Positions 9,606-62,077 of a DNA stretch of 62,077 nt are shown here, piece by piece. The DNA is taken from the IMG/VR virus record IMGVR_UViG_3300021437_000020, positions 1 through 62,077 of that record. One strand, written 5' to 3'. The stretch's first letter is position 1. Each line of letters opens with the position of its first letter. The notes beneath the pieces are model-generated. The model had not been told where the DNA came from and searched no databases. It saw nothing but the letters and a program-made list of their open reading frames with translations. This DNA comes from a virus. Made by a program: the position numbers and the translations under genes.

Positions 9606-10064
9606 ATGGCCAATACGCAAAGCATGGCAACATCATTCAAGCAAGACCTACTAAATGGTCTGCACGCATTCGGTACATCTGTAGTTCGTGGTTCTACAAC
9701 CGCCGATACATTTAAGGCAGCACTTTACTTACAGTCTGCTACTGTTAATGCGTCTACTACAGCTTACTCAGCGACGGGTGAAGTATCCGGTACCGGCTAT
9801 ACTGCTGGTGGTGTTGCAGTTACATTTGGTGTAGCTCCAACCACATCTGGTACAACAGCATTTGTTACACCAAGTGCTTCTATTGTTTACTCTGGTGTCA
9901 CACTTTCTACTCTGTTTGACGCTGTTTTGATCTATAACAACACAGCTACTGGTAAGAATGCAGTATCTGTTCACACATTCACAGCACAAACGATTACAGC
10001 TGGAACATTGACATTGACCATGCCAACTAACGACAGCACAAATGCGCTGATCCGTCTAGCCTAA
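9606..10064 (+). CDS. Virion structural protein, 152 aa
   Basis: It is Ser/Thr/Ala/Gly-rich and beta-predicted, without charged clusters, typical of phage decoration or fibre-associated proteins. The N-terminus (MATSFKQDLLNGLHAFGTS) resembles a family of small phage surface proteins with a short helical start. The Shine-Dalgarno AAGAGGA precedes ATG 9606. It is the first of four small genes leading into the large LamG adhesin. The exact role is not readable. Confidence 0.65.
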   Translation: MANTQSMATSFKQDLLNGLHAFGTSVVRGSTTADTFKAALYLQSATVNASTTAYSATGEVSGTGYTAGGVAVTFGVAPTTSGTTAFVTPSASIVYSGVTLSTLFDAVLIYNNTATGKNAVSVHTFTAQTITAGTLTLTMPTNDSTNALIRLA

Positions 10065-28324: not shown

Positions 28325-28774
28325 ATGTTTGACTGGATTAACGGATCGATTGATCACATTATATTTGCGCTTATCACACCAGGTATAGTTATCGGCGCAC
28401 TGATGATGTTTCTGCAAACTTTATTGCCTACTCCACTAATTCAATGGAAAATGCCACTACTTATTGGCGGTCTTTGTCTAGTTCTTTTCTTTACTTATGA
28501 GGCAGGCAGAAGTGAAGAGGTTGAGGATGTAGAACAAAAGAACAATGCAGTTCTAATTGAGTATTACCGAAACCAAGAAAAGAAGTATGTCTTAGTTGAC
28601 AAAGTCATCACTAAGTATGTAGACAAGGTTAAAGTAGTTGAAAGAATTAAAGAGGTACCAGTAAATGTTTATGTCGACAAAATTGCAGACGAAAGGTGTG
28701 TAATAGATAGTAAGACATCTGATAACATTAGAACACTCTGGAATAATGCAGCTGACGGGCAACTACCTAATTAA
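28325..28774 (+). CDS. Inner-membrane spanin (i-spanin)
   Basis: The protein has 149 aa. Hydrophobic segments lie at about residues 13-35 and 45-60 (KMPLLIGGLCLVLFFTYEA), followed by a charged periplasmic helix (VEDVEQKNNAVLIEYYRNQEKK...VVERIKEVPVNVYVDKI). With the lipoprotein at 29436 it should fuse inner and outer membranes at lysis. ATG 28325 has AGGA upstream. Its C-terminus (ADERCVID...LWNNAADGQLP) is present a second time, out of frame, in the o-spanin gene. The last 12 bases overlap the GIY-YIG gene on the other strand. Confidence 0.75.
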   Translation: MFDWINGSIDHIIFALITPGIVIGALMMFLQTLLPTPLIQWKMPLLIGGLCLVLFFTYEAGRSEEVEDVEQKNNAVLIEYYRNQEKKYVLVDKVITKYVDKVKVVERIKEVPVNVYVDKIADERCVIDSKTSDNIRTLWNNAADGQLPN

Positions 28775-29392
28775 TTTACAATTAGAGAAATGCCATCTTG
28801 TTGCATTTCCTGGCGTTGTTTCTTTTTTACAATGGGGGCACGTGATATTCGGAACTTTTTTAATACTATCACTCATTTTAGTCTTAAAATGTTCCGTGAT
28901 ATAAGCGGTTGATTTATTTTTTTGTGCAGCACTCATTTTAGTCTTTTGTTTTTCTGTTCTTTTAGTCCCTAACAATAAAATACACTTCCATAAGTCTTCA
29001 CTCATTTTTTGTTCGTGATTTCTATTCTTTTTCGCTTCTTTTAATTTATTTTTGTGTTCTTCAGTTAGTGGAATTCCTTTGATTGCACCATCGACACCAT
29101 TTTCTGGTTTTAAATTTGCCCACAAAGATGATTCAACAATATTCATATTGTTGGATAGACTTAGTGCAGTTTTAGTTAGTTCATTTAAATCCGTAAATAA
29201 ACAAAACCACAACGTTTCAACTTTGTGAATACCGTGTTTTCTAATATGTGGTAACCATCTTCTACCAGACCCATTGTATTTCAGAACATTTTTCTTTTTA
29301 GTTTGTCCTAAATACATTAACCCTGTTTCTGTGTGTCTTTTGATGTAAAGCCATGTAGGTTCAAAGATTTTATTTTCTTGTGTTAATAGCAT
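28763..29392 (-). CDS. GIY-YIG homing endonuclease inserted in the spanin locus
   Basis: The protein has 209 aa. WLYIKRHTETGLMYLGQT followed by KYNGSGRRWLPHIRKHG is the GIY-YIG core (the second Y and G kept in MYLGQT). Helical NUMOD-like repeats follow (TEEHKNKLKEA, TEKQKTKMSAAQK), then a C-terminal zinc-finger-like CPHC...HFSNC. Free-standing Seg enzymes of T4 have this build. It runs against the spanins, is AT-rich, and has its own TATAAATA promoter and GGGAG Shine-Dalgarno, marks of a mobile gene. Confidence 0.85.
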   Translation of the reverse strand: MLLTQENKIFEPTWLYIKRHTETGLMYLGQTKKKNVLKYNGSGRRWLPHIRKHGIHKVETLWFCLFTDLNELTKTALSLSNNMNIVESSLWANLKPENGVDGAIKGIPLTEEHKNKLKEAKKNRNHEQKMSEDLWKCILLLGTKRTEKQKTKMSAAQKNKSTAYITEHFKTKMSDSIKKVPNITCPHCKKETTPGNATRWHFSNCKLIR

Positions 29393-29411
29393 AAGTATTC
29401 TCCCATACTAT

Positions 29412-29419
29412 TATTTATA
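29412..29419 (-). promoter_or_regulatory. Late promoter TATAAATA for the GIY-YIG gene
   Basis: The minus-strand sequence is TATAAATA, 19 nt before the ATG at 29392, with GGGAG between. The HNH endonuclease gene at 33571 has the same arrangement. Confidence 0.65.
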
Positions 29420-29431
29420 AAGATTGGATTT

Positions 29432-29590
29432 CAAGATGTCACTAAAGAAGCCGATGCTAAGTGTATTATTGACCCTACTACTAGTGACAATATCAGGTTG
29501 CTTTGGAACAATGCCATGCAAGGAAAACTTCCCGGAAGTACCAGCTCTACTGATGAAACAACCTCAGGAACTACAGAAACTCCCCGATAG
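29432..29590 (+). pseudogene. Remnant of an i-spanin C-terminus in a second frame of the o-spanin gene
   Basis: Reading codons from 29432 (gat at 29435) gives a peptide ending at TAG 29588-29590. Its ADAKCIID..TSDNIR.LWNNA part matches the end of the intact i-spanin (ADERCVID..TSDNIR.LWNNA), with about 19 of 29 residues identical. It has no start codon of its own. It looks like the original 3' end of an i-spanin gene in which the o-spanin gene was embedded, cut off by insertion of the endonuclease block. Confidence 0.8.
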
Positions 29591-29708
29591 TCAACTTACT
29601 CTATCGGTTATTACTGATACTGGTAAGGATAATAATGCAATTGCATTTGATATAAGAGAGCAGCTTAAAGCCCTACAAGACTGGATCAAGATACAACAGT
29701 CTAAGTGA
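29436..29708 (+). CDS. Outer-membrane spanin lipoprotein (o-spanin)
   Basis: The protein has 90 aa. A lipoprotein signal (KKPMLSVLLTLLLVTISGC) has a lipobox ending at Cys22, so the mature chain is a short outer-membrane lipoprotein with Pro and Leu/Gln-rich helical content, as expected for Rz1-type partners. ATG 29436 is chosen; TTG 29424 would add four residues before the signal. Its first 150 bases also encode the i-spanin remnant in another frame, so the ancestral arrangement was probably an embedded Rz/Rz1-type pair. Confidence 0.8.
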   Translation: MSLKKPMLSVLLTLLLVTISGCFGTMPCKENFPEVPALLMKQPQELQKLPDSQLTLSVITDTGKDNNAIAFDIREQLKALQDWIKIQQSK

Positions 29709-30835: not shown

Positions 30836-31804
30836 ATGATTGAAAAACGACTTATTCCGGTAGCGGAATACAAAGAACCGATTGAGTTCGCCACACAACA
30901 ATTAAAGGTATTCTGGCAACCTGATGAAGTGAATGTAGAAAAAGACGTGCAGGATGTCTTGGTTAATTTTACTAAAGCAGAACGACATGGTGTAATCACT
31001 ACACTAAAGTTGTTCTCACTATACGAGACTCACGCGGGTACTGAATACTGGGGTGGTCGATTCAGGGAAATGTTCAACGGCCCAGAATTTGAACGTATGG
31101 CATCTGTATTCTCTATGTTTGAGTTAGCCGTCCATGGTCCGTTTTACAATAAGATTAATGAGTTGCTACACCTTAATGATCAGAAGTTTTATACGTCGTA
31201 TTTGGATAATCCTGTATTAAAGGAACGAATTGATTTTATTGGTGATGTCATCGATGACAAATCTGATCTGGTTTCTCTTGCTGGTTTCTCAATGGTAGAA
31301 GGTGTGATTCTTTATTCTAATTTTGCTTTCCTTAAGCACTTCCAATCACAGGGAAAGAACAAGGCACTAAATATAGTCCGTGGCGTTAATTTCTCTTTGC
31401 GTGATGAAAATCTACACTCTGTAGCAGGTGCATGGTGTTTCAAGTTAAAGAAATCCCTACAAAATCTGAGTGGTGAACAAGAAGCACAACTAGAAGAAAC
31501 TATCCGTCAAACAGCCCGAAAAATCTATGAACACGAGTGTGAAATCATCAAGATGATTTTCGAGGAAGGTAGTATCGATGGCATCACAGAGACACAATTG
31601 CGTCACTTCATCGAGAGCCGGATCAACGAGTGTCTGAAGGCACTCGGATATAAAAAGGAATTCGAAGTAACCTACAACCCCATTAGCGAATGGTTCTATA
31701 AGGCCATTGGTGACTATACATTCAATGATTTCTTTAGTGGAATTGGTAATCAGTATCACCGCGATTGGGACGAACAAGCATTTATTTGGAAGAAAGCAGC
31801 ATGA
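30836..31804 (+). CDS. nrdB: Ribonucleotide reductase, beta subunit
   Basis: The protein has 322 aa, a ferritin-like class I small subunit that carries the dimetal/radical cofactor. Visible ligands include Glu in LYETHAGTEYW, the block FELAVHGPFY with His and the radical-position Tyr, Glu in FSMVEGVILYSNF, and ExxH in RDENLHSVAG. In the first block the Glu-His spacing reads E-x3-H rather than the E-x2-H of E. coli NrdB. AAAGGG precedes ATG 30836. The gene overlaps nrdA by four bases (ATGA); beta before alpha is the reverse of the enterobacterial order. Confidence 0.9.
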   Translation: MIEKRLIPVAEYKEPIEFATQQLKVFWQPDEVNVEKDVQDVLVNFTKAERHGVITTLKLFSLYETHAGTEYWGGRFREMFNGPEFERMASVFSMFELAVHGPFYNKINELLHLNDQKFYTSYLDNPVLKERIDFIGDVIDDKSDLVSLAGFSMVEGVILYSNFAFLKHFQSQGKNKALNIVRGVNFSLRDENLHSVAGAWCFKLKKSLQNLSGEQEAQLEETIRQTARKIYEHECEIIKMIFEEGSIDGITETQLRHFIESRINECLKALGYKKEFEVTYNPISEWFYKAIGDYTFNDFFSGIGNQYHRDWDEQAFIWKKAA

Positions 31805-33516
31805 GTAAAAACATATACGAACAGTTAGGTGAGAGACGTAAAAAGGAACAAGAAGATGGTTTAATGCCAACTTGGTACACTACTGGTGGCGCCCAGATGT
31901 TCTACGACAAATATGAATATCAGACTAACGGCCGTTCCGTCCGTGGTCAGTTTGAGCGTATTGCATCTACGGCAGCCAAGCATCTTAAAGGAACAAAGTA
32001 TGAAGCCGAAGCATATGATTGGTTCTTTAAGCTACTCTGGAACGGTTGGCTAAGTCCATCCACGCCAGTTCTTGCTAACATGGGCACGGAACGTGGTATG
32101 CCAGTTAGTTGTTCTGGTAGTTATGTAGATGATAGCATTTTCGGCTTTTATTCAAATAGACTTGAAACAGCAATGCTGACCAAAAATGGTTTTGGTACAT
32201 CGTCGTATTTGGGTAATATCCGACCACGTGGTTCTAAGATTAGTGTAGGTGGTAAGGCATCTGGTGTACTGCCTGTATTCAAAGGTCATGTAGAAGATAT
32301 GCGTGATGTTGCTCAAGGCACAGCTCGCCGCGGAGCATGGGCAGGTTATCTTGAAATTGATCATGGTGATTTTGACGAGTTAGCAGATCATGTATTAGCA
32401 GAACCAGATGATGCCAATGTAGGTTGGATTATTAAAGATCAATTCATCGAGAAACTAGAAGCTGGTGATGAGGATAGTATCCGTAGATTCCAGAAGGCGA
32501 TGAAATTGAAGATGGTATCTGGTAAGGGGTATTTTGTTTTCATTGATAAGATTAACCGTAAGCGCCCTCAGGCATATGTTAATAAAAAGCTAAACGTATG
32601 GGCATCTAATCTGTGTACCGAGATTACTCTCTTTGCTGATCAAGAACACACATTTACATGTGTTTTATCCTCTATGAATGATGCACGTTATGATGAGTGG
32701 AAAGATACCAAGGCTGTATTCTGGGCAACTATTTTCTTGGATTGTGTTGCAGCAGAGTTCATCGAGCGTGGTAAAAAGGTTCAAGGGCTAGAGAAGGCAG
32801 TTCGCTTTACAGAGAAGGGCCGCGCACTTGGGTTGGGGCAATGTGGATTGCATACTCTATTCCAAATGAAGGGTTTCCCGTTTGAGAGTTTTGATGCGCA
32901 TATGCTGTCACAAGAAATTGCTTCTCATATCTGGCAGCAATCAGAACTTGCTAGTAAGGATATGGCTATTGAACTTGGTGTACCAGAATGGTGCGAGGGT
33001 ACTGGCTTGCGTAATACACATCGGATCGCGCCAGCGCCAACTAAATCAACTGCATTACTAATGGGTGGTGTTTCTGAAGGTATCAACCCTGACCCCGGAA
33101 TGTCTTATACACAAACCACCGCGGCAGGTGAAGTGAATCGTATTAATCCTATTCTTCTAGAAATTATGAAGAAGGCTGGCGCCTATAATAAGAAAAATAT
33201 CCAAGATATTACCGATAAACAAGGTTCAGTACAGCACGTTGATTGGTTAACTCCAGAACAAAAAGAAGTTTTCAAGACTGCATTTGAAATCAATCAAAAG
33301 GTGATTCTGCGCATGGCAGCTGCTCGTGGTAAATATATTGATCAGTGGCAGTCACTGAATCTATTCTTTGGTGCAGATGAAGACCCAGCATGGATTGCAG
33401 AGGTACATTCAGAGGCATTCAGAAACCCAGACATCCTAGGTTTATACTACATATATACAGTAGCAAGTAATACTGCACTAACTGCTAAGAATACAGAGTG
33501 TGAAGCGTGCTCGTAA
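31801..33516 (+). CDS. nrdA: Ribonucleotide reductase, alpha subunit (no ATP cone)
   Basis: The protein has 571 aa against about 760 in E. coli, because it starts directly at the catalytic barrel and lacks the N-terminal ATP-cone that switches off the enzyme with dATP. Active-site elements are intact: PVSCSGSYVD and TFTCVLS supply the redox cysteine pair, and NLCTEI is the Asn/Cys/Glu set with the thiyl cysteine. The C-terminal CEAC is the swinging thiol pair reloaded by thioredoxin. ATG 31801 gives ATGA coupling to nrdB. Loss of the cone fits a phage enzyme that must not be inhibited by dATP. Confidence 0.92.
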   Translation: MSKNIYEQLGERRKKEQEDGLMPTWYTTGGAQMFYDKYEYQTNGRSVRGQFERIASTAAKHLKGTKYEAEAYDWFFKLLWNGWLSPSTPVLANMGTERGMPVSCSGSYVDDSIFGFYSNRLETAMLTKNGFGTSSYLGNIRPRGSKISVGGKASGVLPVFKGHVEDMRDVAQGTARRGAWAGYLEIDHGDFDELADHVLAEPDDANVGWIIKDQFIEKLEAGDEDSIRRFQKAMKLKMVSGKGYFVFIDKINRKRPQAYVNKKLNVWASNLCTEITLFADQEHTFTCVLSSMNDARYDEWKDTKAVFWATIFLDCVAAEFIERGKKVQGLEKAVRFTEKGRALGLGQCGLHTLFQMKGFPFESFDAHMLSQEIASHIWQQSELASKDMAIELGVPEWCEGTGLRNTHRIAPAPTKSTALLMGGVSEGINPDPGMSYTQTTAAGEVNRINPILLEIMKKAGAYNKKNIQDITDKQGSVQHVDWLTPEQKEVFKTAFEINQKVILRMAAARGKYIDQWQSLNLFFGADEDPAWIAEVHSEAFRNPDILGLYYIYTVASNTALTAKNTECEACS

Positions 33517-33546
33517 AGGATTTATGAGCTGCTTGGTGCAGATTTG

Positions 33547-33554
33547 TATAAATA
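33547..33554 (+). promoter_or_regulatory. Late promoter TATAAATA for the HNH gene
   Basis: An exact T4 late consensus 16 nt before ATG 33571, with AGGAGG between. It lies inside an otherwise early/middle operon. Confidence 0.65.
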
Positions 33555-33570
33555 CTCTAGGAGGAAAGAT

Positions 33571-34299
33571 ATGAAAGAATGCACCGAAATGTTTATTGAG
33601 CCATATTATGAATATAGGAAATTTTTAAAGATGTGTTCTATAAAGAAGTATGATGATAAACTTGTATTGCACAGACATCATATTATTCCAAAAAATCATG
33701 GTGGGACCGACGACAAATCGAATATTATAAAACTTTCTGTTGATGATCATATAAAGGCTCATATATTATTTGCTTCTTCTTTTGAAAAGAATACTAGACC
33801 ATATAATAGTAATATGTGGTCGGCAAGACTATTGATTGGTAAATCCATCAAAAATAAAGAAGAAATGAATGATCTTATAACAAAATGTTATTTGGGTGAA
33901 AACAATCCATTTTATTTAAAGAAACACAAGAAAGAATCAATTTATAAAATGAGTAAATCTGCATCTAATAGACTTACTGGAGTTGATTATAATTTTAGAT
34001 ATGGTGATAGGGCCGAGATCGAAAAAAATAAGAGATCTAACGGGGTTTCTCAGTATTGGAATAATATTGACGAAGTGAGTCGTCAGAATCGTATTAAAAA
34101 TATGCAGAATTCAATAATGACCATTGATCCAGAAACTAGAACTGCCAGAGCAAAAGCTGCAGCCCTAGCTGGACGGCCAAAACTGAGAATTGATGGTGTA
34201 GTTTATGACTCTCTAACAGATGCTGCGATACATTACAATACTACTGTGTATAAATTGAAGAAAAATTTTTTAATTGAAGAAATAAAGGAAATAAAATGA
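33571..34299 (+). CDS. HNH homing endonuclease between nrdA and thioredoxin
   Basis: The protein has 242 aa. LHRHHIIPKNHGGTDDKSN...DDHIKAHIL (residues about 29-60) is the HNH nuclease core with the HH pair and the downstream Asn/His. Repeated basic helices follow, and the last 40 residues (RPKLRIDGVVYDSLTDAAIHYN) form a NUMOD-like DNA-binding unit. It is AT-rich against its neighbours, has its own TATAAATA promoter and a very strong AGGAGG Shine-Dalgarno. Neither nrdA nor thioredoxin is split, so it is free-standing rather than intron-encoded. Confidence 0.88.
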   Translation: MKECTEMFIEPYYEYRKFLKMCSIKKYDDKLVLHRHHIIPKNHGGTDDKSNIIKLSVDDHIKAHILFASSFEKNTRPYNSNMWSARLLIGKSIKNKEEMNDLITKCYLGENNPFYLKKHKKESIYKMSKSASNRLTGVDYNFRYGDRAEIEKNKRSNGVSQYWNNIDEVSRQNRIKNMQNSIMTIDPETRTARAKAAALAGRPKLRIDGVVYDSLTDAAIHYNTTVYKLKKNFLIEEIKEIK

Positions 34300-34559: not shown

Positions 34560-34695
34560 ATTAATTCTAAAGTGCAACGCATGTGGCGCAGAAGGTACCA
34601 TTAAACTTGACGATGATCATCAGATCGAATTGTGCCCAAGTTGTGGTAACTGCTTAGATGTCGAGGAAGATGAAGACCTCGACTATGAGGAGTGA
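34549..34695 (+). CDS. Small zinc-ribbon protein, 48 aa
   Basis: CNACG and CPSCGNC make a four-cysteine zinc ribbon, followed by an acidic tail (DVEEDEDLDYEE). GTG 34549 is chosen because AAGGGA lies upstream and the start overlaps the thioredoxin stop; the frame is open further upstream. Such ribbons often bind nucleic acid or RNA polymerase, but nothing specific can be claimed. Confidence 0.65.
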   Translation: MSNKLILKCNACGAEGTIKLDDDHQIELCPSCGNCLDVEEDEDLDYEE

Positions 34696-35144
34696 CCGAG
34701 GGGTGGTTTTATAATGACGAATTGATTGATGACGAATCTCAGTTTCCTGAAAAGACTCTCGGGTTCGTCTACAAAATAACTCGGTTGAGTGACGGAAAAT
34801 TTTATTATGGTAAGAAACTCGCGTACTTTAAAAAGACTAGCGTCAGAACGGTTGTTCTTAAAAATGGTACAAAGAAGAAAAAGAAAATTTCCACTCTCGT
34901 ACCTAGCGATTGGAAAACATACTGGAGTAGCTCGCCTGAACTTCTTGCTGATGTTGAAAAATACGGATCACCCGCTTTCATCCGTGAAATTTTATGTTTC
35001 TGTGAAAACAAAGGGTCACTTGGTTATTACGAGATGAAATTTCAGATGGACGCTCGTGTTCTTGAAAATAGAGAAACAACATACAACGGTATTGTAAATG
35101 CAAGGGTTCATTGGTCCCATATAAAACCAATACTTGAGAAGTAA
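34692..35144 (+). CDS. SegE-like GIY-YIG domain protein, 150 aa
   Basis: LGFVYKITRLSDGKFYYGKK is a GIY-YIG core (VYK...YYGKK) and W...YWSSSPELLADVEKYG...FIREIL continues the fold as in T4 SegE. Unlike mobile Seg proteins it is short, lacks a DNA-binding extension and sits in a coupled operon (GTGA overlap at 34692), so it may be a resident phage protein rather than a homing enzyme. The C-terminus ends IVNARVHWSHIKPI. Confidence 0.75.
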   Translation: MTEGWFYNDELIDDESQFPEKTLGFVYKITRLSDGKFYYGKKLAYFKKTSVRTVVLKNGTKKKKKISTLVPSDWKTYWSSSPELLADVEKYGSPAFIREILCFCENKGSLGYYEMKFQMDARVLENRETTYNGIVNARVHWSHIKPILEK

Positions 35145-41059: not shown

Positions 41060-41293
41060 ATGAATATTATTTCTAAACTGATCGAACCTTTATTGATGGT
41101 AAAGGTAACATTCAACTTCAAGTCTGGCGCAAAATACGTCATTTACTGTAAGAATTTCAATCATAATACAAATAGTAATAACGATCTGATCTCTTATTCA
41201 TGCGCGGGTTTGCGCGATAATACTCATACATATATTCGTATGGATGATGTGTCGTTTATCAGTGCTAAGGTTGTTTTTCGTTGGTTCAAGTAA
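41060..41293 (+). CDS. Hypothetical protein, 77 aa
   Basis: ATG 41060 lies one base after the previous stop. The protein is beta-rich (LLMVKVTFNFKSGAKYVIYCKNF) with Arg/Asp pairs (RDNTHTYIRMDDVSFISAKVVFRWF), like small phage beta-barrel proteins. Function unknown. It ends in a TAATG overlap with the next gene. Confidence 0.6.
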   Translation: MNIISKLIEPLLMVKVTFNFKSGAKYVIYCKNFNHNTNSNNDLISYSCAGLRDNTHTYIRMDDVSFISAKVVFRWFK

Positions 41294-41466
41294 TGTACAC
41301 TGTTCTCGAATTTATAGTTAAGACACTGAAGTTCATCTTCTTTGCCACAGCTGGTATTATCCTGCTTGGTATTGGGCTTATTCTTGCAATTGCTACTACT
41401 GTATTTGTACTCTATGTGGCACCTATTCTTATTTCAATCATTTATCTGTTGATCGCAGCATCATGA
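41293..41466 (+). CDS. Small two-span membrane protein, 57 aa
   Basis: Almost entirely hydrophobic: segments at about residues 8-33 and 36-55, with KTLK as the only charged patch. ATG 41293 overlaps the previous stop (TAATG). It may sit in the inner membrane and affect superinfection or lysis timing; no family is recognised. Confidence 0.65.
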   Translation: MYTVLEFIVKTLKFIFFATAGIILLGIGLILAIATTVFVLYVAPILISIIYLLIAAS

Positions 41467-41645
41467 CCGCACAAATTATTCAATTATTTGAACCGAAACC
41501 GCAAAAAATTCAGAATCGAAAGTGCTCGTTTTGTGGTACTTCTGAAAAGGAAGCAAAGAAGTTTGTTGCTTCACAAGAATCGAACCACTGTATCTGTGGT
41601 GAGTGCATCAAAAAGGCTAAGGAGAAAATCAGTGAAACTGTTTGA
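41463..41645 (+). CDS. Stand-alone ClpX-type C4 zinc-finger protein
   Basis: The protein has 60 aa. Residues 19-52 (RKCSFCGTSEKEAKKFVASQ...CICGECIKKAKEKI) match the N-terminal zinc domain of ClpX: Cys21-x2-Cys24 and Cys45-x2-Cys48 with the CSFCG(K/T)S start and the ICxEC end. In ClpX this domain dimerises and binds adaptors and substrates. No AAA+ domain follows, so the protein could mimic or poison host ClpX, or deliver substrates. ATGA overlap with the membrane-protein gene. Confidence 0.8.
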   Translation: MTAQIIQLFEPKPQKIQNRKCSFCGTSEKEAKKFVASQESNHCICGECIKKAKEKISETV

Positions 41646-41865
41646 ATTTTTCAAGTTTTGGGTAATGGGATTGATCATCAACGAATTTGTTGGTGGTATT
41701 TTAATTTTAGCAGCATTTATTGGTGTTAGTGTTGGTTTGGCATATCTGCTAATCAATTATACCGCTGCTCTGTTAGCGGTTGTAGCATTTATTGGATTAT
41801 GTGCTTACACATATGTTCGATGGGAAAAATTTGAGTATATTAAGAAATATGAGGATAAACAATGA
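41632..41865 (+). CDS. Small membrane protein, 77 aa
   Basis: GTG 41632 has AAGGAG upstream and lies inside the end of the zinc-finger gene. Two hydrophobic segments (about 18-36 and 38-58) are flanked by an N-terminal basic/aromatic stretch (KLFEFFKFW) and a charged C-terminus (YVRWEKFEYIKKYEDK). Unknown function. Ends in an ATGA overlap. Confidence 0.62.
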   Translation: MKLFEFFKFWVMGLIINEFVGGILILAAFIGVSVGLAYLLINYTAALLAVVAFIGLCAYTYVRWEKFEYIKKYEDKQ

Positions 41866-42062
41866 GCTGGATTTTGGTTATGTATATCTACGCTGGTGTT
41901 CTAGCAAAGGGTGATAGTGTTACTCTGCAAACAGTACCGGGGTTTAAAACACAACAAGAGTGTCAACAAGCTGGTAATGCTGCTAGTAGTCTTGTTAATG
42001 GTTCAGCCAAAGAATACAGATTTGTTTGTGTCGCTCAGAGTACAGAAGTAAAAGCAAAGTGA
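41862..42062 (+). CDS. Small exported or membrane-anchored protein, 66 aa
   Basis: The N-terminus MSWILVMYIYAGVLAKGD is a short membrane/signal segment. The rest has two Cys (QQECQQAG and FVCVAQ) in the FKTQQECQQAGNAA pattern, which resembles small periplasmic phage proteins. A disulfide is plausible outside the cytoplasm. Its stop overlaps the GTG of denV. Confidence 0.62.
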   Translation: MSWILVMYIYAGVLAKGDSVTLQTVPGFKTQQECQQAGNAASSLVNGSAKEYRFVCVAQSTEVKAK

Positions 42063-42436
42063 CACGGATTAATCTAATAGACCCTGCTTTACTTCACACC
42101 AAGCATTTGGTGGCAGAGTATCGTGAACTTCCTCGAGTTTTTAAACTCGTAGAAGCAGCACAAGCCAGAGGTCTTACACCTGATACGGTACGTATTCCAA
42201 AAGAGTATGTAATGGGCACAGGTCACGTTACATTTTTCTATAACAAATTATCGTTTCTCAAAAAGCGTTTCAAACTCATTGTTGCAGAAGGAATGAAGCG
42301 TGGTTATAATTTTCAACACACAGATACACCAGTGTGTGATGTTGCTTTGCATTGGTGGGGCGAATGGATACCAAGTGAAGCTGAAATTACCCGCAATGTA
42401 AACCGTATTAAAGAAAGAATGCCACGAAATGTTTGA
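42059..42436 (+). CDS. denV: Pyrimidine-dimer DNA glycosylase (T4 endonuclease V)
   Basis: The protein has 125 aa, against 138 in T4. TRINLIDPALL...KHLVAEYRELPRVFKLV and GTGHVTFFYNKLSFLKKRF...EGMKRGYNF match DenV. The enzyme uses the alpha-amine of Thr2 as nucleophile and Glu23 as catalyst. GTG 42059 places Thr at position 2 and Glu at 23, which fixes this start over the longer frame from 42026. It repairs UV damage in phage DNA. The aromatic C-terminal tail of T4 DenV is missing. Confidence 0.93.
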   Translation: MTRINLIDPALLHTKHLVAEYRELPRVFKLVEAAQARGLTPDTVRIPKEYVMGTGHVTFFYNKLSFLKKRFKLIVAEGMKRGYNFQHTDTPVCDVALHWWGEWIPSEAEITRNVNRIKERMPRNV

Positions 42437-42800
42437 TAGAGTTACAGTAAATCAATCACCAGCTTATCCGCAATATGTTAACGTCACGGAGAAAAGAGCT
42501 CCCACAGATGACTCGGTCCGACTATTGAAAGAGTTCCGCCAAGCAGCAGAAAAGGATTTGGTAAGTTCTCTGAAACTAGAGAACAATCTAATTAGTGCTA
42601 CACTTCATGTTTATAAAGACCCGTTACAGTGGAAAGAACAGTATGTTGTTCTTACAAAAATCAATGGGAAGAACTTCAGAATTGAAGTCGAGCGAGACCC
42701 GTATCAGAAAGAAACATGGGAAGAAGTGGTCTTCAACCGCGTTGCAGAATACATCGCCGCAGAACTTCTAGGTAAAGCCGGTAAACTAAAAGAGTATTAA
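42429..42800 (+). CDS. Hypothetical protein, 123 aa
   Basis: I do not recognise this protein. The middle (SVRLLKEFRQAAEKDLVSSLKLENNLISATLHVYKD) is a helix then strands, and the end (VVFNRVAEYIAAELLGKAG) a helix, giving a compact alpha/beta protein. It overlaps denV by eight bases. Its stop TAA directly precedes a family-A -35 box. Confidence 0.65.
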   Translation: MFDRVTVNQSPAYPQYVNVTEKRAPTDDSVRLLKEFRQAAEKDLVSSLKLENNLISATLHVYKDPLQWKEQYVVLTKINGKNFRIEVERDPYQKETWEEVVFNRVAEYIAAELLGKAGKLKEY

Positions 42801-42828
42801 TTTACTTTTATCGAAGATGTGATATAAT
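42801..42828 (+). promoter_or_regulatory. Family-A promoter (leaderless), gene 42835
   Basis: TTTACT 42801-42806, directly after stop TAA; TATAAT 42823-42828, spacing 16. ATG 42835 is 6 nt after the -10. Confidence 0.7.
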
Positions 42829-42834
42829 GTTAAT

Positions 42835-43056
42835 ATGAAAAATATTGCTATATTGTTTTTGATTATTACTCTATCGGGTTGCAGAAAGCGAATCGACGAG
42901 GGTATTGATGTTATGACCAATGACCAAATTATCGAGACGACTCGGAAGTGCGAAGCTGCCGGGCTTGATGGCGATGCCGAGCGAAATCCGTTCGCTAATG
43001 GTGTTGTGAAGATTAATTGTGTCCCGAGAAAGCATGTGGAATATGATCGACGTTAA
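42835..43056 (+). CDS. Small lipoprotein, 73 aa
   Basis: Lipoprotein signal MKNIAILFLIITLSGC with lipobox LSGC (Cys16), then a mature chain with two further Cys. Early, leaderless expression of a lipoprotein suggests a role at the envelope during takeover, such as blocking superinfection, but this is inference. It overlaps the next gene. Confidence 0.75.
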   Translation: MKNIAILFLIITLSGCRKRIDEGIDVMTNDQIIETTRKCEAAGLDGDAERNPFANGVVKINCVPRKHVEYDRR

Positions 43057-43300
43057 ACAAATTACAGACAGCCGAATTCGTAGTATCGTTACGCGTACTC
43101 TCGATGACCACTTTCGTTCCACATATACACATCTAAATCTCGAAAAATACTCGGAGTATCTTGTTCGCGAGACTGTTCTTGAATGTATTAAACAGATGGC
43201 ATTCCCAGTAGATATGGAGAATCCATTTCATAAAACATTCGTAGAGAAACAATGGGATCACTTGGCTAAACGATTTAACTTACAAGAACATGGCAACTAA
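43043..43300 (+). CDS. Hypothetical protein, 85 aa
   Basis: I do not recognise this protein. It is helical and charged (DSRIRSIVTRTLDDHFRSTYTHLNLEKYSEYLVRETVLECIK), soluble. The start could be ATG 43043 (chosen), ATG 43034 or GTG 43019; none has a clear Shine-Dalgarno, so coupling to the lipoprotein gene is likely. Overlaps the next ATG by 11 bases. Confidence 0.6.
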   Translation: MIDVKQITDSRIRSIVTRTLDDHFRSTYTHLNLEKYSEYLVRETVLECIKQMAFPVDMENPFHKTFVEKQWDHLAKRFNLQEHGN

Positions 43301-51861: not shown

Positions 51862-52443
51862 TTATTTTCTCAGCGAGTCAGCCCAGACTCTTTGTTTTGA
51901 TGCTCCAACGAATCGTTCCACAGGTAGCATCATGGCCGTTGCCCAGTCTTCTGGTTTCACTTTCATATAACGAGATTTGACGTGATCAACCAGATAGTGT
52001 TTAATACATGCTTGTGCGCCAGGTACATTACTCATCGCCATTACAGTCCCCCACTGGTACTTGAGTTTGGTATTGTTATCCAGCTTCTTGATACCCTGTA
52101 TGTCCATTAGAGCTTTGAATAGTGCAAACCGCTCTTGATAGCCAAGATAGTGTAGGTTGAGACCTAGAAAACCACCAGGGACTTGCTTATAAGGAAACAC
52201 CATCGGAAACTGGTCATAATACGGTAGTTTCTCTTTTAGCTTTGGGTCATAGTAAAAGAAGTGTAATTGACCTGGTACTATATTTGAACGAAGATCATCT
52301 ATACCATCTCGCAATAACAACGCGTTCGGGGTTACTTTACCTTTAGCCATTAATTTCACCTGGTCATCAAACCATCGACGTGAGTCCTGGACCTGTTTAA
52401 GATCCACGTGAAATTTGTCTAGAATAGGTCTTTTTATTGTCAT
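51862..52443 (-). CDS. Conserved T4-type virion protein, 193 aa
   Basis: PGQLHFFYYDPKLKEKLPYYDQFPMVFPYKQVPGGFLGLNLHYLGYQERFALFKALMD resembles a pattern I recall from T4-type phages of many hosts, near head-completion genes. I do not know its function; a head-tail or DNA-end role is possible because it is coupled to gp4 (ATGA overlap). The C-terminal part is helical and basic. Confidence 0.7.
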   Translation of the reverse strand: MTIKRPILDKFHVDLKQVQDSRRWFDDQVKLMAKGKVTPNALLLRDGIDDLRSNIVPGQLHFFYYDPKLKEKLPYYDQFPMVFPYKQVPGGFLGLNLHYLGYQERFALFKALMDIQGIKKLDNNTKLKYQWGTVMAMSNVPGAQACIKHYLVDHVKSRYMKVKPEDWATAMMLPVERFVGASKQRVWADSLRK

Positions 52444-52880
52444 CCGAAAAGGTGTTTTTCTGTGAGTACTATGAATTCCATGTTATTCTTTTTACAGAAA
52501 GAATCCGCAGCTGCCCACTTTGCTTGATTTACAGTGTATGTTGCAATCTCTTCTATGTATTTATTCGTTTTCTTTGATCTTTTTACCGGCGGTTTTGTCT
52601 GTGCATCCGGCTTGATTTCTATCAAATACTTCTTAAATGCATCACCCTTTTGAATAATAACCGCCATATCAACGAAATATCTGTGCATCTTATTATCAAC
52701 AGGGGAATAATATGGAATGATGAACTCTTCGCTGTTCCACTGAGTAACCGCTGGATGAGTATCTGCCCATTTAAATGCTTTAAGTTCCCATGAACTACGG
52801 TAGATGATATTATCAACATCGCCGATGTATTTCTTGGGGTTCTTAGGTACGAATCTTCCTTGCAAATATTTGCGGGCCAT
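52440..52880 (-). CDS. gp4: Head completion protein, gp4
   Basis: The protein has 146 aa, close to T4 gp4 (150). QGRFVPKNPKKYIGDVDNIIYRSSWELKAFKWADTHPAVTQWNSEEFIIPYYSPVDNKMHRYFVDM matches gp4 along its length. HRYFVDM...YLIEIKPDAQT gives the Asp and Glu-x-Lys of a PD-(D/E)XK nuclease fold. It acts on filled heads before tail joining. It is first in the minus-strand operon; the start region shares the divergent promoter zone with gp48, and no Shine-Dalgarno is clear. Confidence 0.92.
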   Translation of the reverse strand: MARKYLQGRFVPKNPKKYIGDVDNIIYRSSWELKAFKWADTHPAVTQWNSEEFIIPYYSPVDNKMHRYFVDMAVIIQKGDAFKKYLIEIKPDAQTKPPVKRSKKTNKYIEEIATYTVNQAKWAAADSFCKKNNMEFIVLTEKHLFG

Positions 52881-58612: not shown

Positions 58613-60423
58613 GTACACTACAACAAATAAACACTGGTGAATTAGATTTCAGTGAAATTAAACAAAATCTCAAGACGTTTCTTCAGGGGCAATCAGTTCT
58701 TGCGGACTACGATTTTGATGGCAGCGTTCTTTCGACTGTATTGGATGTATTGGCTTTCAATACCCACTACAACGCACTTTATAACAATATGACTATCAAT
58801 GAGGCGTTTATTGATAGTGCTTCTAAGCGAGCTTCTCTGATTTCTATCGCTAAGCTTATGGGCTATGTCCCAAGCTCGGTGACATCTGCTTCAGCGATTA
58901 TTGGACTGGAAATTTCTACTCCAAATACGGATAACTCGAACATTTATACACTACCAGCAGGAACTACATTTGCAGCTGCAAAAGATGGAACGACTTATAC
59001 ATTCAATCTAATGCAAGATGTCACTATGGGCCGTGTGAGTTCTACCGACAAATACATTATGGGTGGTTATGCTGTTCTAGAAGGTAGCCCAAATAAAATC
59101 ACATACACATCAGGTGCTGGAGTTCATTTTGTGATTCCTGATCGTGCTTGTGACACAAAAACAATCAGCGTATCTGTATATAATCCTACCACACTTCAGA
59201 CAACGGTTTTCACCCAAGCAAATAGCTTAGTTGGGGTTCGTTCTACAGATAATGTTTATTTCGTTAAACAGCGTGAAGATCTATTTTATGAAATTTACTT
59301 TGGTAACGGTTCGTTTGGACAGTCTATTCCTTCCGGTGCAACTGTCACTATCAAATATCTGGCCAGCTCGGGTGAAGCTGCTAATGATTCTGGTTTCTTA
59401 GTTTACACTGGCGGTGGCAACCCAGACTATACGTACACAGTAACCACCGAAGTTGTTGCTGGCGGCGGAGCATCAGAAGAAACAAAGGATAGTATTCGTT
59501 TCAATGCACCGCTTGCTCACCAAGCACAAGACCGAATTGTCAGTGCAAATGACTATACAGCTCTTTTGATGAATTACTACCCAAGCATTGAATCGGTCAG
59601 TGTCTGGGGTGGCCAAGATAATAATCCACCTCAATATGGTAAGGTTTTTATCGCTGCAAAGCCATTTAATCGTGATGCATTTAGTACCGTTGAAAAGAAT
59701 AATATGACTTCCGGTATTATTGCTAAGAAGAATATTATTACCGTTACCCCGGTTTTTGTTGACCCAATTTATTTGGACGTTGAGCTTGTGACTAATGTTT
59801 ATTATGATCCAGCGAAAACTACTTTGACTCCGGGTCAATTGGCAACAAATGTCCGTGATACTATTTCTCAGTATAGCAGTACACTATCGAAGTTTGAATC
59901 TGCTTTTAGATATTCTTATGTGAGCACGAAGATTGACGAGACCGACGAGGCCATTGTATCTAATATCACAAATATTAGAATTCGTCACCCAATCGATGTT
60001 GTCTATGGTATTACAAATAATTATATTGCAAACATGGGTAATCCAGTTGCAAAGAGCGATAAACCCACATTCTATAGCACCCGTTTTTACCAGACCGGTA
60101 TTACAAATCGTTGTTATCTAGAAAATAGCGGCACTGATATTCGTTTGATTCAAGAATTACCTACTGGTACCCCGGTTGACATGGGTAGTGTTGGTACGCT
60201 AGATTTTGAGAATGGTATTATCACTGCAAATGGTTTAAATATCGTTTCTCTATATGATGCTAAATTTGAATTTGTATTCTACCCAAGTTCGTTTGACGTA
60301 GTACCTCTGAACCGTTATATTGTTCGTTTGCCAGCAGATAAAGTGACTGTAAATATGATTGTAGATACACTTTCACAAACTCGTGCTGCTAAAACAAGCC
60401 ACATATTCACTGCGTCTAGATGA
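58609..60423 (+). CDS. gp6: Baseplate wedge subunit, gp6
   Basis: The protein has 604 aa, against 660 in T4. INTGELDFSEIKQNLKTFLQGQSVLADYDFDGSVLSTVLDVLAFNTHYNALYNNMTINEAFIDSASKRASLISIAKLMGYVP is the gp6 N-terminus, and the middle follows the gpJ-type baseplate fold (FEIYFGNGSFGQSIPSGATVTIKYLASSGEAAND, RIVSANDYTALLMNYYPSIESVSVWGGQDNNPPQYGKVFIA). It forms the inner baseplate ring with gp53 and gp25. Overlaps the next gene by four bases. Confidence 0.93.
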   Translation: MSTLQQINTGELDFSEIKQNLKTFLQGQSVLADYDFDGSVLSTVLDVLAFNTHYNALYNNMTINEAFIDSASKRASLISIAKLMGYVPSSVTSASAIIGLEISTPNTDNSNIYTLPAGTTFAAAKDGTTYTFNLMQDVTMGRVSSTDKYIMGGYAVLEGSPNKITYTSGAGVHFVIPDRACDTKTISVSVYNPTTLQTTVFTQANSLVGVRSTDNVYFVKQREDLFYEIYFGNGSFGQSIPSGATVTIKYLASSGEAANDSGFLVYTGGGNPDYTYTVTTEVVAGGGASEETKDSIRFNAPLAHQAQDRIVSANDYTALLMNYYPSIESVSVWGGQDNNPPQYGKVFIAAKPFNRDAFSTVEKNNMTSGIIAKKNIITVTPVFVDPIYLDVELVTNVYYDPAKTTLTPGQLATNVRDTISQYSSTLSKFESAFRYSYVSTKIDETDEAIVSNITNIRIRHPIDVVYGITNNYIANMGNPVAKSDKPTFYSTRFYQTGITNRCYLENSGTDIRLIQELPTGTPVDMGSVGTLDFENGIITANGLNIVSLYDAKFEFVFYPSSFDVVPLNRYIVRLPADKVTVNMIVDTLSQTRAAKTSHIFTASR

Positions 60424-61970
60424 GCACAAAACTTCCATTTCTAGCTGTTGATAAACTACCAGAGCACATTCGCGAGAGTTACCCTCAGCTAGTCACATTT
60501 GTCCAAAAATACTACGAGTTTCTCGACACACTTGAGACTATTCGTGGTAATTTGGATTTGGATTCTGCTGCACTTAAATTTGTTAAACTACAGAATTTAA
60601 GCTATGCACGGGGATTTAATACTCCACAGAGTTTGGATGTAGTTGAGTTTGTCCGTAATAATAAGGCATTCTTTGCTGCCAAGGGTAATGAGCAAGCGTT
60701 TATATTCTTTTTCAAGGCATTCTTTGGCGAAGACATCACCGTTGTAAAACCTAGTTATATTATTGCGTCTGGTGGTAAATTCTCTCAGAAGAGTTTTATT
60801 ACATTTACTACAATCTTCGGCGCATTTACCGGGCAGTATGTAGATTTTGTTATTGAAAATACGAACGGGAAATTCCTATTTCAAAGCGAAAGTATTCAGA
60901 ATCTAGGTGGTAATCAGTTTAGAGTGACGTTTACTGCTCCGCGCAATTTTAAAATTGGTGTTGGTGATAAGATAGCGCACCGCAATGCTACTACTGATGT
61001 TATTGAATATCTTGGTGGTATTGACCTATCACCAAAGTCTCTTAAAATTACTGTTCCCGGTAAGTTCTGGCAAATTGGACAAATTGTTACTGTCCCCGGT
61101 TCTTCTGTTAATACTATCGCCAAAGTAACCCGTGTTGATAATAACAAGGGTATTGCATATCTAGATATTATCCAATTCGGCTATGGCCACTCGGTTAATC
61201 AAACTCTGGTGACATCTCCATTTAACGGGAGACCAGCAGAACCGGTTTATACAATCACTAAGACTATCACTAGTGCAACTCCGCGTGCGTATCTGTATTC
61301 TCTAAACATTAATGATAGCACAAATGGTATCGACGAGTCTATCCGAGGGGTTATAAATTCACAAACTGTTGTGGCTGTGGATAATATCTATGAAGCAACA
61401 CCAATCATTGCTGATACAGATTTTAGCTTGCAAGATTGGCTAGATTCTCGTGCTACGATTCAATATACGTTTGATACTGTATCAAAGACACATGCTGAGT
61501 ATATTGACGAAGAAAGTCTGATTAGTAATCAGTCTAATAGAATCCATGATAATTACTATTATCAGGCATTCTCATATTTGATTCAAACAAAGCAGAATAT
61601 TGACACATACCGTGGCGCACTTGATATTATTCACCCGGCGGGTCTTAAATTCTTTGCCGAATTAACCAAGATATTCGATGGTGACGTGAATTTAGCTTAT
61701 GAAGCTACGCGTACAATGTCGATTGATAAGCTGTTCTTCAATGATTTTATTTCAGCACCTACAGATATAATTGCTCTTGGGGTGTCAAAACCATTTAGTG
61801 ATACACTAAATATTACTGAAACAACTGGTAAAGACATAACAAAAGCCGGATTATTTGATACTGCTATTTTGTCGGATGGCACGACAACTATTGCTTCTGG
61901 CGGCTATGCTGCAACTGGATATGATGACGGAACTTACTCAGTATTTGAGGTCTCAATAACAATTTCTTGA
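60420..61970 (+). CDS. Baseplate-associated virion protein, 516 aa
   Basis: The first 150 residues (LPFLAVDKLPEHIRESYPQLVTFVQKYYEFLDTLETIRGNLD...FAAKGNEQAFIFFFKAFFGED) resemble a structural protein I recall right after gp6 in T4-type phages outside the enteric group. In T4 this place holds gp7/gp8, but I see no clear match to them. The middle is beta-rich, and the end (FFAELTKIFDGDVNLAYEATRTMSIDKLFFNDF) helical. It is probably a wedge or fibre-attachment component. Confidence 0.65.
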   Translation: MSTKLPFLAVDKLPEHIRESYPQLVTFVQKYYEFLDTLETIRGNLDLDSAALKFVKLQNLSYARGFNTPQSLDVVEFVRNNKAFFAAKGNEQAFIFFFKAFFGEDITVVKPSYIIASGGKFSQKSFITFTTIFGAFTGQYVDFVIENTNGKFLFQSESIQNLGGNQFRVTFTAPRNFKIGVGDKIAHRNATTDVIEYLGGIDLSPKSLKITVPGKFWQIGQIVTVPGSSVNTIAKVTRVDNNKGIAYLDIIQFGYGHSVNQTLVTSPFNGRPAEPVYTITKTITSATPRAYLYSLNINDSTNGIDESIRGVINSQTVVAVDNIYEATPIIADTDFSLQDWLDSRATIQYTFDTVSKTHAEYIDEESLISNQSNRIHDNYYYQAFSYLIQTKQNIDTYRGALDIIHPAGLKFFAELTKIFDGDVNLAYEATRTMSIDKLFFNDFISAPTDIIALGVSKPFSDTLNITETTGKDITKAGLFDTAILSDGTTTIASGGYAATGYDDGTYSVFEVSITIS

Positions 61971-61978
61971 GGATAATA

Positions 61979-62077
61979 TGGTAAACGATAACATTAAACT
62001 AACTGGTGAACTACAAATTGTAGTTCGTGATCAAAACGGACAAATCAAAGAACAACGCGTTGTTCCGAATCTAGTTG
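61979..62077 (+). CDS. Fibre/surface protein (partial, runs off the window)
   Basis: ATG 61979 follows GAGGA. The visible 33 residues (DNIKLTGELQIVVRDQNGQIKEQRVVPNLV) resemble the N-terminal domain of the 18109 protein (YTVTCIGKNGKKKWTEEFDNLV) and of many phage structural proteins. The rest lies outside the window. Confidence 0.7.

Follow-up and report, generated by a model that had tools for sequence, protein, structure and literature searches.

A predicted homing endonuclease gene and a foreign i-spanin end probably entered an overlapping phage spanin pair together

Results

Genes of the spanin locus

The stretch of DNA analyzed here (the window, 62,077 nucleotides) is a metagenome-derived virus contig from IMG/VR and not an isolate, and its neighborhood is T4-like, with primase and nrd genes. 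Three open reading frames follow one another at the locus: an i-spanin gene (28325–28771, +), a GIY-YIG-type gene (28763–29392, −) whose 3' end overlaps that of the i-spanin gene, and an o-spanin gene (29436–29708, +). The features of a two-component spanin system are present, namely an N-terminal membrane segment in the i-spanin, the lipobox TISGC in the o-spanin, and PHROG Rz-like matches, and the pair overlaps in a sister phage, L001. The parts of the locus are listed in Table 1.

Table 1. Parts of the spanin locus, in window positions, with the basis for each
Feature	Position	Strand	Basis
Resident i-spanin part, codons 1–117, including the transmembrane segment	28325–28675	+	Identical to L001 up to 28675; PHROG i-spanin/Rz-like matches
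Old o-spanin start, now a 12-codon dead-end frame, MFMSTKLQTKGV and stop	28665–28703	+	L001 o-spanin begins at the homologous ATG
ATGTC microhomology, left copy	28671–28675	+	L001 5347–5351 aligns to both sides
Replacement i-spanin 3' end, apparently imported, DKIADERCVIDSKTSDNIRTLWNNAADGQLPN	28676–28771	+	20/32 amino acids, 52/96 nt, and 8/32 third positions equal to the displaced native tail
Antisense gene (209 aa) for a predicted free-standing homing endonuclease of the GIY-YIG type	28763–29392	−	PHROG, model, and Seg/GIY-YIG viral matches
Endonuclease-gene ribosome-binding site GGGAG	29400–29404	−	Sequence; duplex energy −7.3
T4-late-promoter-like TATAAATA, 19 nt ahead of the endonuclease start	29412–29419	−	Same motif before two other inserted endonuclease genes
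Weak new o-spanin ribosome-binding core GGA, probably supplied by the insert	29426–29428	+	Duplex energy −3.1
ATGTC microhomology, right copy; homology to the empty sister restarts	29436–29440	+	Alignment to L001
o-spanin, 90 aa, lipobox TISGC	29436–29708	+	PHROG Rz-like spanin; 100% protein identity to sister phage
Relic, the displaced native i-spanin tail, out of frame in the o-spanin gene	29438–29590	+	Same DNA is the living i-spanin tail in L001

A second i-spanin tail within the o-spanin gene

The i-spanin C terminus reads VPVNVYV, then DKIADERCVIDSKTSDNIRTLWNNAADGQLPN and a stop. A preliminary description of this DNA had reported a second, out-of-frame copy of this end inside the o-spanin gene, with the GIY-YIG gene between the two copies, and both observations are borne out. 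In a frame that differs from that of the o-spanin, the relic tail begins VTKEADAKCIIDPTTSDNIRLLWNNAMQGKLPGST at 29438, and its frame ends DVTKEADAKCIIDPTTSDNIRLLWNNAMQGKLPGSTSSTDETTSGTTETPR before the stop at 29590; the minus-strand gene separates it from the living tail. Tail (28676–28771) and relic are identical at 20 of 32 residues, and their DNA at 52 of 96 positions (54%). The local alignment of the two scores 110, whereas none of 5000 shuffles exceeds 44 and the best score of the tail against unrelated frames across the whole window is 36. When the i-spanin was used as a query against the window, its own gene and the place of the relic were the only matches (66% identity, E = 4.4e-9). 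Chance similarity, the objection that the preliminary description had itself raised, is ruled out by these scores.

The gene between the tails

The 209-residue product of the intervening gene matched a PHROG homing endonuclease family (E 5.6e-8) and gave significant matches to viral Seg and GIY-YIG models; a Pfam search of this protein returned no GIY-YIG match. A predicted model of low overall confidence was closest to the catalytic domain of I-TevI (probability 0.94, E 0.13), and the residue aligned with the catalytic Glu of I-TevI appears to be Ala across this endonuclease subfamily, in an alignment that is uncertain. Based on this profile and fold evidence, we assign the protein to the GIY-YIG type with modest confidence.

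The motif TATAAATA is also present 16 and 18 nt ahead of two other inserted endonuclease genes. It is not enriched across the window (5 seen, 5.4 expected) and was rejected as a late promoter of the phage as a whole; it is informative only through its placement ahead of inserted endonuclease genes. A search of the region against Rfam at E values up to 1 gave no match, and no intron family was found. A separate gene with a Pfam SegE_GIY-YIG match (5.8e-26) lies at 34692–35144 of the window, is common to the sister phage and L051, and starts within the 3' end of a Zn-ribbon gene.

An empty site in a sister phage

L001 (IMGVR_UViG_3300048672_000527) is a 164.8-kb IMG/VR contig with T4-like genes, and it is the one sufficiently close empty sister on which the exact junctions rest. 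It lacks a block of 765 bp. Its upstream flank is 99.8% identical to the window, identity breaks off at 28675 on the left and restarts at 29436 on the right, and the downstream flank has a single mismatch in 273 bp, at 29585. The 5-bp sequence ATGTC is present at both junctions of the block. In L001, the i-spanin gene passes through the frame that is the relic in the window, overlaps the o-spanin gene, and stops within it. The ribosome-binding duplex energy of the o-spanin is −3.1 in the window versus −7.2 at the native start in L001. The change at 29585 abolishes the former stop of the i-frame without altering the o-spanin protein, as might be expected of a disused i-frame, although a single change is little proof.

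Divergence between the window and its sister is clustered at 31250–33516, 41250–43250, and 59750–62077, amid long identical stretches, which suggests recent recombination tracts. L001 also lacks a second insertion (window 33521–34282; gene 33571–34299), which carries, between nrdA and a thioredoxin-like gene, a gene for an endonuclease of the HNH type (Pfam HNH, 1.3e-5). The motif TATAAATA lies 16 nt ahead of the start of this gene, and the short repeat TAAAGGA is present at the junction of the insertion.

Direction and age of the insertion

Occupied and empty alleles of one site are thus seen in the window and in its relatives, respectively. In the homologous region of L015 (primase 61% identical), L019/L020, L021, L022, L023/L024, and Caulobacter phage Cr30, the spanin genes overlap and no endonuclease gene is present, and the 765-bp block is missing from L001 and every other relative found. 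Because all other relatives found are empty and overlapping, the insertion is derived, and because its flanks are nearly identical to L001, it is recent. From these alignments, we conclude that an overlapped spanin pair most probably became a separated one.

The i-spanin frame encodes a C-terminal helical segment (IREQLxxLQxW) in L015, L019, L022, L023, and Cr30, and the o-spanin frame encodes it in L021, L001, and the window. This segment appears to swap partner by frame switching (L015 4263–4895; L021 2606–2917; L016 2890–3447; window 29436–29708).

Origin of the replacement tail

The i-spanin tails of the empty phages L001 and L015 have the same base at 22 of 32 third codon positions, as expected of DNA that encodes the o-spanin at the same time. 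The new tail of the window agrees with L001 at 22 first and 22 second positions and at 8 of 32 third positions, which is the level of chance (8/32 versus 22/32, Fisher p = 0.001). Read in the o-spanin frame, the new tail meets two stop codons. Its spelling and these stops therefore argue against the resident gene as the source of the tail, and they point to a diverged donor in which the tail no longer overlapped an o-spanin.

Queries with the endonuclease, the i-spanin, the i-spanin tail, or the o-spanin retrieved no donor with the 28676–28771 tail from IMG/VR; a scan of genome contigs found no relative, a DNA search of the phage collection gave no match, and the new tail has no other counterpart in the window. 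The only i-spanin cysteine outside the membrane segment lies in the new tail, and intermolecular disulfides have been reported to be general among two-component spanins (PMC6139136). The supplied tail thus plausibly rescues i-spanin function.

These comparisons also support most of what the preliminary description had proposed for the history of the locus. As it had predicted, the i-spanin of an endonuclease-free relative, L001, runs through the 29432–29590 frame and overlaps the o-spanin, and the empty site in L001 together with the two open spanin frames supports its proposal that a mobile block entered the i-spanin gene and left both spanins alive. Where it had left undecided whether the block brought or created the new 3' end, flanks nearly identical to L001 beside tails of 54% DNA identity indicate that the end was brought. 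The proposed embedding of the o-spanin in the i-spanin 3' end holds as an overlap but not in full, as the o-spanin extends past the i-spanin stop. Finally, it had taken the event to be old or the donor distant: third positions at chance agree with a distant donor, whereas flanks of 99.8% identity and 1 mismatch in 273 bp speak against an old event.

A conserved island at the insertion point

The aligned i-spanin DNA of L001 and L015 is 58% identical, yet 43 bp at the insertion point (L001 5320–5362) differ at one base. This island includes the o-spanin ribosome-binding site, the o-spanin start, and i-spanin codons; the insert splits it, and the left ATGTC junction falls within it. Its size is close to that of the I-TevI homing site, which spans 38 bp (PMC2988022), and we predict it, by sequence conservation, to be a candidate homing site.

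Tail replacement at other loci

The sister phage L001, also labeled G002, carries five relatives of the window endonuclease. In the G002 RNA-ligase gene, a new end (TMSFKSISQKYLLNSVD and a stop) is followed by an antisense endonuclease gene and then by a relic of the native end, ISNVYLEKQKD and a stop; the junction has a 7-bp microhomology, CAATTTC, and the window has the empty site. Similarly, the DNA-ligase gene combines a new end with an antisense endonuclease gene, a small zinc-finger-like ORF, and the relic NEVIESKDPKVKTKSLFLPVYKQVRFDKTMANKLSELK (score 95, shuffle maximum 48). The Zn-ribbon gene has a homologous, differently spelled new end and an antisense endonuclease gene but no relic, and its native end, the ancestral state, is retained in the window and L051. 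A gp4-like gene beside an endonuclease gene differs over its first ∼50 residues, again with no relic, and none was found at the fifth relative, which follows a prohead-protease-like gene. Outside this phage, the ribose-phosphate pyrophosphokinase (prs) gene of L010 carries a new end and is accompanied by an endonuclease-like gene and a relic (score 233, shuffle maximum 43). Tail replacement is thus not confined to the spanin locus but is repeated at several genes, both in relatives and in phages that are unrelated.

A relic scan of ∼20 other endonuclease loci gave no convincing relic, and a few weak matches just above the shuffle threshold were judged to be chance. The scan undercounts, since it misses the short RNA-ligase relic and the T5-like relics described below, which were recognized by comparison with empty sisters.

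Several further observations were made around these loci. The diverged N-terminal ∼50 residues of the gp4-like head completion protein (L048 2106–3341 versus window 52440–52880) look like the 5'-end counterpart of tail replacement. In L004 (217–3104), a related endonuclease gene lies between two halves of an ATP-dependent DNA-ligase gene with intein-like ends; the C half matches Pfam Intein_splicing (4e-5), so the two halves may form a split-intein ligase whose gap is occupied by the endonuclease gene. Directly upstream of two sister-phage endonuclease genes lie small zinc-finger-like ORFs (CxxC...HxxxH) that resemble each other in sequence (L050 3701–3904 and L014 ∼9900–10040) and are possible element cargo.

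Spanin genes of T5-like isolates

The i-spanins of T5 and Tennessee end in CLTGNLEYCSQPQSQSQAVHKK and a stop. Those of Shivani, NR01, IrisVonRoten, and phiR201 read CLSGSLEYC and then seven new residues, and the o-spanin genes of the same four phages contain the out-of-frame relic NLEYCSQPQSQSQAVHKK (VQKK in phiR201). Occupied records make up 18 of ∼442 matching T5-like records. Kongari 2018 noted that the spanin genes of Shivani and phiR201 are separated by a GIY-YIG gene; that survey leaves the direction of change open and, in the part available to us, does not describe the relic (PMC6139136).

Discussion

Invasion of an overlapping gene pair

Based on the above results, we consider it probable, at roughly 85%, that a free-standing gene for a predicted GIY-YIG-type homing endonuclease, accompanied by a foreign and diverged version of the 3' end of the gene that it targets, has invaded an overlapping i-/o-spanin pair in recent times. 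The block holds, in order, a complete i-spanin tail with its stop, the antisense endonuclease gene, and an o-spanin start region. We infer that the nuclease would cut the 43-bp island around the o-spanin start, that the upstream broken end would copy the donor gene tail and the endonuclease gene through homology, and that the downstream end, lacking homology, would be joined at a microhomology in a one-sided, illegitimate double-strand-break repair. The foreign tail would rescue the i-spanin, so that the element is tolerated inside a coding sequence without splicing. Such a one-sided route would leave the recipient's own gene end behind as a relic, and the relic is preserved here because its DNA also encodes the signal peptide of the o-spanin. 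If both sides were homologous, replacement of the native end would leave no relic, as at the Zn-ribbon gene; the relic-free Zn-ribbon and gp4-like cases argue that not every insertion was one-sided. For the T4 td intron, experiments showed that homology on one side only still allows homing, with the other junction at a microhomology (PMC2988022, citing Parker 1999).

The same block could have arrived by ordinary phage recombination from a donor that already had separated spanins and an endonuclease gene between them, with the nuclease uninvolved. Nuclease activity is only predicted, and both sister genomes are mosaic with other divergent patches. We nevertheless think this unlikely: at several loci that are unrelated to one another, a changed gene end accompanies an endonuclease gene, together with relics and microhomology junctions, and the island that contains the left junction is conserved to an unusual degree, as homing sites are.

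Endonuclease genes are often gained and lost, and allele replacement from an empty phage removes them cleanly, so the block might instead be old in the clade and have been precisely lost from L001 and other relatives. This history is improbable given that L001, L015, L019–L024, and Cr30 are all empty and overlapping and that flank divergence is minimal. In-place duplication of the resident i-spanin 3' end at insertion, followed by divergence of the copies, would account for an insert flanked by two homologous copies and for the short repeats at its junctions, but if younger than the split from L001 it would have left nearly identical copies. The downstream copy and the flanks are nearly identical to L001, whereas the upstream copy differs at 44 of 96 positions with random third positions, and we give duplication very little credence. 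An assembly chimera of co-occurring phages would be conceivable for an IMG/VR virus contig, yet it is more improbable still: both flanks match one sister, two precise joins that both leave good frames would be needed, and cultured T5-like isolates show the same kind of arrangement. Least credible is a self-splicing intron that restores the native i-spanin in RNA, for although the joined flanks give the exact native frame and 765 bp is a multiple of three, there is no Rfam match at E up to 1, and an intron would have no need of what the new tail provides, a homologous i-spanin end that brings a stop of its own.

Invasion by an endonuclease gene that carries its own rescue would explain why a nuclease gene within a coding sequence, or even within two overlapping genes, neither requires splicing nor kills the phage. 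Beyond this locus, we are inclined to think that there is a general class of phage homing elements that carry a diverged 3' end of the target gene, need neither intron nor intein to invade essential coding sequences, leave the native end behind as a fossil, untangle overlapping genes, and have arisen repeatedly in different endonuclease families. The succession of tail, endonuclease gene, and relic tail is a simple search signature, which yielded further cases here. Phage gene ends may be imported along with endonuclease genes, and this affects gene trees and annotation. The overlapped-to-separated direction now suggested also bears on the architecture change whose direction the main spanin survey left open for T5 (PMC6139136).

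Comparison with known systems

The T5-like isolates resemble the window in that an endonuclease gene lies at the o-spanin start, overlapped spanins have become separated, only the extreme C terminus of the i-spanin is altered, and an out-of-frame relic (NLEYCSQPQSQSQAVHKK) is present. They differ in that their endonuclease is unrelated (no detectable similarity), its gene is in the sense orientation, and the replacement tail is much shorter.

The free-standing T4 Seg endonucleases and intronless homing resemble the window in the GIY-YIG type, which is predicted for the window protein, in a location beside essential functions, in a late-type promoter in some cases, and in co-conversion of flanking sequence. 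In T4-like phages, in contrast to the window, endonuclease genes lie between targets or split them (mobE in nrdA of Aeh1), and replacement of the coding end of a target gene was not found in the part of the T4 homing review available to us (PMC2988022). In the open-licence literature searched, no description of tail replacement with a relic in phages was found.

Synthetic homing-and-rescue gene drives combine a nuclease with a recoded end of the interrupted gene. The window likewise has a nuclease gene and a differently spelled end of the gene that it interrupts; such drives are engineered, whereas the different spelling in the window would stem from divergence of the donor phage.

Closest in organization are fungal mitochondrial mobile ORFs with a foreign C terminus, known from Allomyces atp6 and from Glomus atp6, atp9, cox2, and nad3, in which the native copy is close to relatives and the imported copy has ∼64–81% DNA identity (PMC3630166). 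In these as in the window, an endonuclease gene is joined to an imported, diverged, in-frame 3' end, the native end is displaced downstream, and the imported end is more diverged than the displaced native one. The window differs in being phage DNA with an antisense endonuclease gene and microhomology junctions, and in that its displaced end stays functional by coding for an overlapping gene in another frame. By this analogy, the window element appears to work like the fungal C-terminus-carrying ORFs without being one of them, and it would belong with the free-standing endonucleases of phages.
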